A DNA stretch of 60,656 nt from Burkholderiales bacterium (GTDB taxonomy: Bacteria; Pseudomonadota; Gammaproteobacteria; Burkholderiales; Burkholderiaceae_C), in assembly GCA_003963075.1 (NCBI GenBank), contig RXJV01000065.1, positions 1-60,656 of the forward strand, read 5' to 3'. Below the pieces are notes generated by a model. The model was not told where the DNA came from. It saw nothing but the letters and a program-made list of their open reading frames with translations, and made no database searches. Numbering within the stretch: the first letter of the stretch is position 1; each line of letters begins with the position of its first letter. The position numbers and the translations under genes were made by a program. Positions 52,051 through 54,975 of the stretch are shown here, piece after piece.

Positions 52051-52713
52051 ATGCAACTTTCATCAATTCAGCGCTCTGGCCTTGCGGCGACCAAAGCTGA
52101 CCGTTTCCTGAGCGCATTGGACGATGGGTTGAGAACCGTGTTCACGCCGACGCGGCCGTCGCGCCCCTCCCCGGCCGACGCGCTGTCCCGGGTTGATCTC
52201 ACAGCAGCGGACGCACGCGAGGCCGGCGCCCTGATGCGGGTCAACCACGTCGGCGAAATCTGCGCGCAGGCCTTGTACCGCTCCCAGGCCCTGTTCAGCC
52301 GGAGCGACGAACTGCGCGGCCACTTTGAACTGGCCGCACAACAGGAACTTGATCATCTCGCCTGGACCGCCGAGCGTGTCGCTGAACTCGGCACGCACAC
52401 CAGTCGCTTGGCCCCCATCTGGTGGGCCGGCGCATTCGCCTGGGGCAGCCTGGCCGGCCTGGCCGGCGACCGATGGAGCCTCGGCTTCGTCGTCGAAACC
52501 GAACGACAGGTCGAGGCTCACCTGGCGTCGCACCTCGACCGCCTGCCTGTCGAGGACACGCCGTCGCGAGCCATCATTGATCAGATGAAGCGCGAGGAGG
52601 CCGAACACGCACAGGCCGCTCTCGCTGCGGGGGCACTGCCACTGCCAGCGCCGGTGCGCGGCCTGATGCGCCTGGCCGCCAAGGTCATGACCACGGTCGC
52701 GCACCGGGTCTGA
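52051..52713 (+). CDS. coq7: 3-demethoxyubiquinol 3-hydroxylase (Coq7)
   Basis: A di-iron hydroxylase that performs the last ring hydroxylation of ubiquinone synthesis, replacing UbiF in many bacteria. 220 residues; di-iron ligands fit Glu69 (RVNHVGEI), Glu99 and His102 (QELDHL), Glu149/151 (FVVETERQVEAH) and Glu183 with His186 (REEAEHAQ). Works downstream of the side-chain synthase IspB. Full length for the betaproteobacterial form. Confidence 0.95.
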   Translation: MQLSSIQRSGLAATKADRFLSALDDGLRTVFTPTRPSRPSPADALSRVDLTAADAREAGALMRVNHVGEICAQALYRSQALFSRSDELRGHFELAAQQELDHLAWTAERVAELGTHTSRLAPIWWAGAFAWGSLAGLAGDRWSLGFVVETERQVEAHLASHLDRLPVEDTPSRAIIDQMKREEAEHAQAALAAGALPLPAPVRGLMRLAAKVMTTVAHRV

Positions 52714-52718
52714 ACGAG

Positions 52719-53159
52719 CTAGCCCGGTTCGGCGATCTCGAACGAGGTGCTGATGGCCGAGGTCTTGGCCAACATCGCCGTCGCGGAACAGTACTTCTCG
52801 TGCGACAGCGCAATCGCGCGCTCGACGATCTCGGGCTTCAATTGGTGGCCGCTGACGACAAAGTGGAAATGGATGGCGGTAAAGACCTTGGGGTCGCTGG
52901 TGGCACGCTCGGCCTTCAGCGTCACCTTGCAGCCGCGCACGTCATGGCGCCCGCGTTTCAGGATCAACACCACATCGTAGGCCGTACAGCCACCGGTGCC
53001 GGCCAGCACCGTCTCCATCGGGCGCGGCGCCAGGTTTCTGCCGCCGCCGTCCGGGGCGCCATCCATCGGCAGGACATGGCCACTGCCCGTCTCGGCGATG
53101 AAGCTCATGCCACTCGGCCCGTCCGGGCCCAACCAGCTGATCGTGCATTCCATGCTCAT
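52719..53159 (-). CDS. OsmC/Ohr-family protein (YhfA-like)
   Basis: 146 residues. OsmC-family folds are often thiol peroxidases; here one Cys lies in LAGTGGCTAYDVV and another in HEKYCSATAML, the pair typical of the YhfA/OsmC group. Substrate unknown. Convergent with coq7, 5 bp between ends; start at 53159 or, two codons later, 53153. Confidence 0.88.
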   Translation of the reverse strand: MSMECTISWLGPDGPSGMSFIAETGSGHVLPMDGAPDGGGRNLAPRPMETVLAGTGGCTAYDVVLILKRGRHDVRGCKVTLKAERATSDPKVFTAIHFHFVVSGHQLKPEIVERAIALSHEKYCSATAMLAKTSAISTSFEIAEPG

Positions 53160-53195: not shown

Positions 53196-53225
53196 TTGCA
53201 CCGCAGCATAGCTCGGCGCTAGACT
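53196..53225 (+). promoter_or_regulatory. sigma70-type promoter of the candidate small RNA
   Basis: TTGCAC (53196-53201), 18-bp spacer, TAGACT (53220-53225). Both hexamers are 4 of 6 or better against consensus. The predicted start is near 53232. Confidence 0.6.
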
Positions 53226-53231
53226 GCCGCT

Positions 53232-53317
53232 GCGCGAGACCAGTCTCGCACCGATTGTCTCCTCCACCGCCTCCATGGTGGATTCAACCCGAGCTTGCAA
53301 GAGCTCGGGTTTTTTTT
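53232..53317 (+). ncRNA. candidate small RNA (or attenuated leader) upstream of ilvA, with anti-Shine-Dalgarno motifs
   Basis: About 86 bases between a promoter and a strong terminator. Three hairpins follow one another: GCGAGAC/GTCTCGC (53234-53249); TCCACC/GGTGGA (53263-53282) whose 8-base loop GCCTCCAT exposes CCUCC; and the terminator stem. The linker between the first two reads TCTCCTCC, again complementary to ribosome-binding sites. This layout is like regulatory small RNAs that block Shine-Dalgarno sequences. It is 78 bp before ilvA, so a leader that attenuates ilvA is the alternative. No coding sequence explains it. Confidence 0.6.
53287..53317 (+). terminator. intrinsic terminator 78 bp before ilvA
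   Basis: ACCCGAGCT-TGCAAG-AGCTCGGGT, a perfect 9-bp stem, followed by eight T (53310-53317). The strongest terminator in the window, placed between osmC-family and ilvA start sites where no gene ends on this strand. Confidence 0.92.
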
Positions 53318-53394
53318 CGCCGAAGGCCAGGCCCGGTGCGGTGGCAGGGCCTCCCCTATCATCCGGCGCCGCATTGAGCACCCAAGGAGACCTG

Positions 53395-54975
53395 ATGAGC
53401 GCCGCGCGCCGCCGACCAACAGCTGCAGCCCATGCGGCGCCCCAGGCGCCCGCGATGTTGCCGCCCGGCAGCAGCTACCTGCAGCGCATCCTGAACGCGC
53501 GGGTGTACGACGTGGCGCGCGAGACCGCGCTCGCGAGCGCGCCGAAATTGTCCCGGCGGCTCGGCAACAAGGTGTGGCTGAAGCGCGAGGACGAGCAGGA
53601 CGTCTTCAGCTTCAAGCTGCGCGGCGCCTACAACAAGATGGCGCATTTGAGCGCCCAACAGCGTGCTGCCGGCGTCATCTGCGCCTCGGCAGGCAACCAT
53701 GCACAGGGGGTCGCCCTGTCGGCGCGCAAGCTCGGCTGTCGGGCGGTCATCGTGATGCCGGTGACCACGCCTCAGGTCAAGGTCGACGCGGTACGCAGCC
53801 ATGGCGGCGAGGTCGTGCTGCATGGAGAGAGCTTCAGCGACGCCTTCACCCATGCCCAGGAACTCGAGCGCGCGCAGGGGCTGACCTTCGTCCACCCCTT
53901 CGACGACCCCGACGTCATCGCCGGCCAGGGCACCATCGCGATGGAAATGCTGCGCCAGCATCCGGGCCCCATCGACGCGATCTTCGTTGCGATCGGCGGC
54001 GGCGGCCTGATCGCCGGCGTCGCGGCCTACGTCAAGGCGCTGCGCCCCGAAATCCGGATCATCGGCGTGCAGACGACAGACTCCGACGCCATGGTCCGCT
54101 CGGTCAAGGCCGGCAAGCGCGTGCAGTTGCAGGACGTCGGTCTGTTTGCGGACGGCACTGCGGTCAAGCTGGTCGGCGAGGAGACGTTCCGCATCGCCCG
54201 GGAGCTGGTCGACGACTACATCCTCGTCGACACCGACGCCGTCTGCGCCGCGATCAAGGACGTGTTCGAGGACACCCGCTCCATCCTCGAACCCTCCGGG
54301 GCGATGAGCGTCGCCGCGGTCAAGCAATACGCCGCGACGACCGGGGCCAAGGGCCAGACCTTGATCGCGATCACCTGCGGCGCCAACATGAACTTCGACC
54401 GGCTGCGCTTCGTTGCCGAACGGGCGGAGGTCGGCGAGCGCCGCGAGGCCCTGTTCGCGGTGACCATTCCGGAGGCGCGTGGCAGCTTCAAGCGCTTCTG
54501 CGAACTGCTCGGCCCGCGCAGCGTGACCGAGTTCAACTACCGCATCGCCGATGCCAGCGTCGCCCACATCTTCGTGGGCGTTGCGATCTCCAAGCCCGAT
54601 GAAGCCGCCCGGCTGGCCCGCACCTTCAGCAAGGCTGGCTTCCAGACCCTGGACCTGACGAACGATGAGCTCGCCAAGCAGCATGTCCGGCATATGGTCG
54701 GTGGCCGCAGCGAGTTGGCCCGCGACGAGCGCCTGTTCCGCTTCCAGTTCCCGGAGCGGCCGGGCGCGCTGATGAAATTCCTGTCCAGCATGCATCCGGA
54801 CTGGAACATCAGCCTGTTCCACTACCGCAACCAGGGTGCAGACCATGGTCGCATCCTGGTCGGCATCCAGGTGCCGCGTGGTGACGCCCCTGCGCTGCGC
54901 GCCTTTCTGTCCGGCCTGAACTATCCCTTCGAGGATGAAACCGCCAACCCGGCCTATCGCTTGTTCCTGGCTTGA
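53395..54975 (+). CDS. ilvA: threonine ammonia-lyase, biosynthetic
   Basis: A PLP enzyme that deaminates threonine to 2-oxobutyrate, the first step of isoleucine synthesis. 526 residues from ATG 53395 (AAGGAGA upstream); PLP lysine Lys74 in FSFKLRGAYN, SAGNHAQGVALSA, and the GGGGLIAGVAAY glycine loop. The C-terminus holds two ACT-like regulatory domains (about 340-520), typical of the isoleucine-inhibited long form. The frame is open for another 40 codons upstream, but those codons would cross the terminator. An 11-bp stem region (AGGCCC...GGGCCT, 53329-53352) lies ahead of the start. Confidence 0.96.
   Translation: MSAARRRPTAAAHAAPQAPAMLPPGSSYLQRILNARVYDVARETALASAPKLSRRLGNKVWLKREDEQDVFSFKLRGAYNKMAHLSAQQRAAGVICASAGNHAQGVALSARKLGCRAVIVMPVTTPQVKVDAVRSHGGEVVLHGESFSDAFTHAQELERAQGLTFVHPFDDPDVIAGQGTIAMEMLRQHPGPIDAIFVAIGGGGLIAGVAAYVKALRPEIRIIGVQTTDSDAMVRSVKAGKRVQLQDVGLFADGTAVKLVGEETFRIARELVDDYILVDTDAVCAAIKDVFEDTRSILEPSGAMSVAAVKQYAATTGAKGQTLIAITCGANMNFDRLRFVAERAEVGERREALFAVTIPEARGSFKRFCELLGPRSVTEFNYRIADASVAHIFVGVAISKPDEAARLARTFSKAGFQTLDLTNDELAKQHVRHMVGGRSELARDERLFRFQFPERPGALMKFLSSMHPDWNISLFHYRNQGADHGRILVGIQVPRGDAPALRAFLSGLNYPFEDETANPAYRLFLA

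Follow-up and report, generated by a model that had tools for sequence, protein, structure and literature searches.

A stretch of about 86 bases between an osmC-family gene and ilvA, in the 60,656-nt DNA analysed here (the window), is framed by promoter-like hexamers and a terminator, and it raises the questions (i) whether it encodes a small RNA (sRNA) of a known or a new family or instead an attenuated ilvA leader, and (ii) what may control its synthesis. On the evidence below we consider it likely that the locus encodes a trans-acting sRNA of Rfam family RF02278 that would be trimmed, would mask ribosome-binding sites and would be repressed by PhaR until polyhydroxybutyrate (PHB) granules form. 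Feature coordinates are given in Table 1.

Table 1. Predicted and annotated features of the sRNA locus and its neighbours, in window coordinates.
Feature	Position	Strand	Basis
coq7	52051..52713	+	Pfam COQ7, NCBIfam equivalog DMQ_monoox_COQ7; conserved neighbour
osmC-family gene	52719..53159	-	Pfam OsmC; conserved neighbour
-35 hexamer TTGCAC	53196..53201	+	read in sequence; TTGC kept in relatives
Predicted PhaR operator TGCACCGCAGCAT, 13-mer over -35	53197..53209	+	17.9 bits, phasin-promoter matrix
-10 hexamer TAGACT	53220..53225	+	sequence and alignment A1; predicted start near 53232
Hairpin 1, putative 5' stem of primary transcript, GCGAGAC/GTCTCGC	53234..53249	+	arms 7/7 complementary
RF02278 sRNA core, probable processed form	53256..53318	+	cmscan, 61.1 bits over all 64 model positions
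Unpaired UCUCCUCC (DNA TCTCCTCC), counterpart of S17 Site 1	53258..53265	+	sequence, fold; analogy with PMC11722255
Hairpin 2, loop CCUCCA (CCTCCA 53270-53275), counterpart of S17 Site 2	53263..53282	+	fold, covariation
Intrinsic terminator with its stem-loop at 53286-53311 and a run of eight T at 53310-53317	53286..53317	+	scan, fold, arm complementarity, covariation
ilvA, threonine ammonia-lyase	53395..54975	+	Pfam PALP, Thr_dehydrat_C, TIGR01124; neighbour only in some relatives

The promoter-like pair proposed in the initial annotation was recovered by direct reading of the sequence, with an 18-nt spacer (TTGCAC-18-TAGACT), and the box over the -35 is conserved in relatives. By our own count 7 of the 12 hexamer positions are identical to the sigma-70 consensus, and TANACT-like -10 hexamers lie downstream of the box across the genus loci. 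A scan with the sigma-70 consensus found no promoter at the locus, so that the call of a putative promoter at 53196-53225 is based on conservation. No gene accounts for 53196-53317, in line with the earlier statement that no gene explains these bases: the ATG at 53275, whose open frame continues into ilvA, lies inside a hairpin, and the ilvA reading that has a ribosome-binding site begins at 53395. The ilvA ribosome-binding site within 53371-53400 reads AAGGAGACC.

Whether the RNA belonged to a known family had been left to a covariance search, and this search answered it: the locus is a full-length match to RF02278, the "Betaproteobacteria toxic sRNA" family (61.1 bits against a cut-off of 50), and it has the family's two hairpins, CU-rich unpaired stretch, CCUCC loop and 3' terminator. 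Membership of 53256-53318 is near certain, and, taken alone, the RNA adds one more ordinary member to a known family. The proposal that a short RNA here presents anti-Shine-Dalgarno loops is thereby upheld, since relatives in and around RF02278 are known as short RNAs that are expressed and target ribosome-binding sites (PMC5688073, PMC11722255). At the same place the Rfam models anti-hemB, SorX and SorY reached 24.0, 20.5 and 23.6 bits, short of the 49.5, 46.6 and 111 bits set as their cut-offs, and membership of these three families was rejected despite their CCUCC-type loops. Matches to RF02278 at E <= 0.001 were present in 33 of 40 relatives (28 of them above the cut-off), and within the order 192 of 300 genomes had a match and 116 had one above the cut-off, while none was found in 14 control genomes. 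The window's own genome has four matches, one of them above the cut-off.

The two hairpins and the CCUCC-type loop described earlier were confirmed by reading and folding. The 87-nt form (53232-53318) folds with a z of -4.44, a value reached by 1 of 200 dinucleotide shuffles, and the 63-nt form (53256-53318) with a z of -5.59, reached by none of 200. The terminator turned out even better than first described, its arms being complementary at 10 of 10 positions and the scan giving 11 pairs and a 4-nt loop; within 901 bases two terminator-like sites were found against 0.8 expected from shuffles. The UCUCCUCC stretch is complementary to ribosome-binding sites.

Conservation of the structure was examined in an alignment (A1) of 20 hand-chosen rows, 19 of them distinct, comprising 18 of the 19 same-genus loci (without L029) together with L005 and L023 from the four remaining loci of the family (without L006 and L032). 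Standard pairs occupied 98.1% of 473 cells, both sides had changed in 10 of 25 pairs, none of 500 shuffles reached any of five pairing measures, and shifting the partner lowered pairing to 48% or less. Compensatory changes were present in all three hairpins, including hairpin 1, which lies outside the Rfam model and has changes on both sides in three of its seven pairs, contributed by the window and L005; in L023 the stem is retained in a register of its own. The covariation support is good but not deep, since in the other stems one or two rows supply the majority of the double changes.

The genomic context was surveyed in the 118 named loci listed among the matches, which yield low estimates because the loci span up to 8 kb and are not centred. 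Among these, osmC was present in 89, coq7 in 64 and ilvA in 35, and in the 1.5-kb flanks of the loci examined ilvA adjoined the sRNA solely in the window's own family. Adjacency to coq7 in other Betaproteobacteria, as expected of an S17 orthologue, was therefore found, and constant placement upstream of ilvA was not. Since osmC and coq7 are frequent neighbours and ilvA adjoins the sRNA in one family only, the sRNA belongs to the coq7-osmC neighbourhood. Comparison of the same intergenic region in relatives, which had been suggested at the outset, showed conserved stems and box and a widely shared coq7-osmC-sRNA arrangement. Among the named loci listed, the proteins of the window were most similar to those of Roseateles asaccharophilus (ilvA 78.8%, osmC 78.2%, coq7 65.9%), from which we take the window to derive from a relative of the R. 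asaccharophilus group.

Two other readings of the transcribed region have to be weighed against these data. That the element is an attenuated leader or terminator controlling ilvA, the alternative named in the initial annotation, is highly improbable: ilvA does lie downstream on the same strand, and a GGAGAC complementary to the GUCUCC of the sRNA stands beside its start in 16 of 19 genus loci, but the sRNA stays beside osmC where ilvA is absent, as it is from many relatives, and the low count of ilvA among the named loci listed stands against the much higher one of osmC. Moreover, no leader peptide with an abundance of branched-chain codons was seen, and the pairing energy of the sRNA with ilvA is ordinary, 39% of shuffles being equally good. 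It is also distinctly unlikely that hairpin 1 is a DNA operator placed just downstream of the start and not an RNA stem. Its commonest form in the genus, a fully palindromic sequence centred on CG, would suit such an operator, and the genus form GCGAAAACGTTTTCGC resembles a LacI-family palindrome; in addition, the double changes come from few rows (the window, L005 and L023, the last in its own register), and the same-genus L029 keeps the box and lacks the hairpin. A DNA operator would, however, be expected to preserve its centre and spacing, whereas here complementarity is kept while arms, centre and spacing vary (GCGAGAC/GTCTCGC in the window, GCGCAAC/GTTGCGC in L005, GCGATGC/GCGTCGC in L023).

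For the control of the RNA the sequence over the -35, where the initial annotation had noted no PhaR-type box, is informative. Its minus strand (53196-53208) matches exactly TG[N]TGC[N]3GCAA, a site established by footprinting in Herbaspirillum seropedicae for PhbF/PhaR, a repressor that senses PHB (PMC3206438). This pattern alone is not rare, with 4 matches in the 60.7-kb window against 1.15 expected. A matrix for PhaR sites was constructed by motif discovery in the 250-nt upstream regions of 30 phasin genes only, so as to avoid circularity. The motif discovered, TGC[AG]N[TC]GCANCA[AT], reached at least 16.6 bits in 29 of the 30 phasin upstreams and agrees with the footprinted H. seropedicae site. 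With this matrix, a score as high as the 17.9 bits of the box arose once when the upstream region in the window was shuffled 5000 times. The genome of the window combines a predicted phasin-type operator at the sRNA promoter with one PhaR (a single PF07879 match, 106.4 bits), as expected of a PhaR regulon member. In its phasin promoter (L065), TGTTGCAGTGCAGCA is joined by another site that is weaker; one of the two PhaR-type sites precedes the -35 and the other lies close to the start, a layout like the R. eutropha arrangement described in PMC3206438.

The box accompanies the sRNA in all 22 same-family loci examined (18 of them of the same genus), in 8 of 9 loci of a second, more distant sample of the family, and in 12 of 20 of the genus's weaker RF02278 paralogues. 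Among the paralogues of the window's genome, the copy on contig 138 scored 17.7 bits and the other two 6.3 and -0.1. The former (L004, G000:C138:9591-9656) is a second, sub-threshold RF02278-like RNA, and its PhaR-type box lies 36 nt upstream. The exact 13 letters of the window recurred in 5 of 378 fetched loci, one of them a phasin promoter.

The association of the box with PhaR was assessed in 149 listed loci above the RF02278 cut-off from 107 genomes, without the window's own row, which were split into 115 loci from 80 PhaR-encoding genomes and 34 loci from 27 genomes that lack PhaR; a box was counted when the matrix reached at least 10 bits within 150 nt upstream. Among the loci listed, 94 of the 115 from PhaR genomes had the box, representing 73 of the 80 genomes and 17 of the 18 families, against 0 of 34 from genomes without PhaR (0 of 27 genomes, 0 of 9 families). 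At 13 bits or more the counts among these loci were 59 of 115 against 0 of 34, and when the upstream region was extended to 250 nt at the 10-bit threshold they were 97 of 115 against 2 of 33, one locus with a short upstream being dropped. Dinucleotide shuffles of the upstreams gave a mean of 4.9 boxes per 115 (maximum 13) and column-permuted matrices a mean of 1.1 per 115 (maximum 8), and the density of boxes was 10.5 hits/kb upstream against 0.20 in flanking DNA. A Fisher test by genome gave 3.4e-19, a value that ignores kinship, the PhaR-less genomes being concentrated in few lineages. Among the named loci listed, 89 of 116 had a box of at least 10 bits (2 of the 118 were dropped), and the genera bearing it include Cupriavidus, Polaromonas, Variovorax, Achromobacter, Herbaspirillum and Roseateles. 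Exceptions were found as well. A box of at least 10 bits was absent from 21 of the 115 listed loci in PhaR genomes, family f49 has PhaR and no box in either of its two loci, family f44 has a box in 1 of 3, and the named Burkholderia loci L230 and L273 reach only about 7 bits.

Families f4, f10 and f44 include genomes both with and without PhaR. PhaR was absent from 15 of 200 genomes of family f4, and the sRNA was searched for in nine f4 genomes, namely seven of these 15 and two of endosymbiont size, four of which had a match above the cut-off. In two of these, the PhaR-less and 100% complete genomes G297 (9 contigs) and G410 (1 contig), the box has been lost (scores of 0.3 and -3.4 bits), while PhaR-bearing congeners retain it (12.4-19.4 bits in the three of G297, 13.2-14.6 bits in the four of G410). 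The G410 promoter has kept TTGC and CATAAT and lost the GCA half; PhaC is absent from G410 and present in G297. The drafts G421 (310 contigs) and G469 (290 contigs), in which PhaR was undetected and the box is kept (12.8 and 20.2 bits), count against the association as they stand; both have PhaC, and their PhaR may therefore be unassembled.

The promoters of PhaR-less genomes have a feature of their own. Among the upstreams listed, ATATTAGA lies over the -10 in 25 of 34 from PhaR-less genomes, 10 of which show the dyad ATTAGA-N-TCTAAT; in PhaR genomes the corresponding counts are 3 and 0 of 115. Loci bearing ATATTAGA are L067-L098 and others, including the named L239, L257 and L284, and the element is a candidate site of another control. 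The SqrR/BigR site ATTC-N8-GAAT (PMC9774250) was tried for this AT-rich site and gave no defensible match.

An RF02278 sRNA whose box is the site of some other regulator, or core promoter only, and whose expression tracks growth phase and not PHB, would also account for part of these observations. The box overlaps the -35, its TTGC part being promoter, the 21 listed loci without a box occur in genomes that have PhaR, and S17 is reported to be Bvg-responsive, being raised in the Bvg+ mode (PMC11722255). Against this, the GCANCA half lies in the spacer and is not needed by sigma-70, yet it is conserved; precisely this half is lost in G410, where TTGC and the CATAAT -10 are kept and both PhaR and PhaC are gone; and the matrix that detects the box was derived from phasin promoters only. 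We regard this explanation as unlikely.

The preferred reading, repression by PhaR of an RF02278 sRNA, can be set out as a sequence of steps. The data above show family membership, conservation of the structure and the association of the PhaR-type box with the family and with PhaR, and from there we infer transcript ends, processing, PhaR binding, the direction of control and the targets. RNA polymerase would initiate near 53232 and end at the terminator, giving about 87 nt. The 86-base length proposed initially fits such a primary transcript from the conserved promoter, and to this is added a probable cut near 53255, proposed from the examples of S17 and ncS27, that would remove the 5' hairpin and leave about 63 nt as the stable form. 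The unpaired UCUCCUCC and the loop CCUCCA would pair with ribosome-binding sites, and the translation of many uptake and metabolism mRNAs would be damped. Bound to the box over the -35, PhaR would exclude the polymerase and so repress the promoter. Once PHB granules form they would bind PhaR, as PHB granules do (PMC3206438, PMC12542648), freeing the promoter, so that the RNA would be made and uptake and growth slowed. When pairing of the unpaired 5' region was computed against six leaders of this genome, the duplex energies were ordinary compared with shuffles (fractions equally good: ilvA 0.39, coq7 0.89, osmC 0.67, phasin 0.23, phaR 0.36, porin 0.26); no target stands out, and none of the six is supported.

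More generally, we lean towards the view that the Betaproteobacteria toxic sRNAs form the part of the PHB regulon that acts through RNA. Repressed by PhaR until granules form, they would let the amount of stored carbon set a broad brake on protein synthesis from uptake and catabolic mRNAs. A like principle would have arisen in alpha-proteobacteria with MmgR, and lineages that lack PhaR would have retained the RNA and placed a different AT-rich site over the -10. The likely gain is the control of the RNA and not the RNA itself. A PhaR-type control element of this known RNA family looks new; no published link between PhaR and RF02278 was found in the literature searched, a search that missed two key papers. 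Control by PhaR bears on bioplastic production, and PHB model strains allow a direct test.

Among known systems, the RF02278 RNAs of Burkholderia cenocepacia are the short double-hairpin ncS03, ncS05, ncS27 and ncS62 (PMC5688073, PMC4603805). Like the window's RNA they have two hairpins, the second being the terminator, together with UCUCCUCC and a CCUCC loop; the window adds a distinct covarying 5' hairpin and lies in a coq7-osmC-ilvA neighbourhood. Overexpression of ncS27 slows growth, and its longer RNA has a processing site, as is predicted for the longer form here (PMC5688073, PMC4603805). In glucose medium ncS03, ncS05 and ncS27 rise 8.0-, 6.9- and 4.3-fold, and under starvation 2.6 to 3.9-fold (PMC5688073); both rises fit derepression from PhaR. 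The regulator of their accumulation is stated as unknown in PMC5688073, and the accessible portion of that source does not state control by PhaR.

The window's RNA is the positional counterpart of the coq7-side S17 of Bordetella. S17 is close kin to the RF02278 family. In Bordetella pertussis its gene adjoins coq7; RNase E shortens the RNA from 190 to 67 nt, and two single-stranded sites in it mediate repression. Toxicity to E. coli from a plasmid is a trait of the family in the literature, and the overexpressed S17S form is only modestly inhibitory, at entry into stationary phase (PMC11722255). The two share coq7 adjacency, a 27-nt conserved 5' core, the anti-RBS Sites 1 and 2 and, as predicted for the RNA here, a processed long form, and they differ in the length of the latter (190 nt against about 87 nt here). 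PMC11722255 postulates that derepression controls the S17 promoter and names no repressor. In Bordetella genomospecies 12 and 2 (L295 and L267), TTGCNNNGCACAA lies over the probable -35, followed by a -10-like TACTAT or TATGAT, about 135-165 nt upstream of the core, and is a candidate repressor site of the S17 promoter. If the proposed control is true, PhaR would answer both questions, that of the regulator of accumulation (PMC5688073) and that of S17 derepression (PMC11722255); it would explain the rise in glucose medium, and a "toxic" RNA would become part of carbon-storage physiology.

A precedent for the proposed control is MmgR of Sinorhizobium meliloti, which differs in belonging to the alpha-proteobacteria and to RNA family alpha-r8. 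MmgR is a short, Hfq-dependent RNA, and it is repressed by AniA/PhaR, which binds mmgR DNA at its promoter in gel shift (PMC8401924, PMC12542648); the MmgR operator includes the same 13 letters as the box of the window (PMC12542648).
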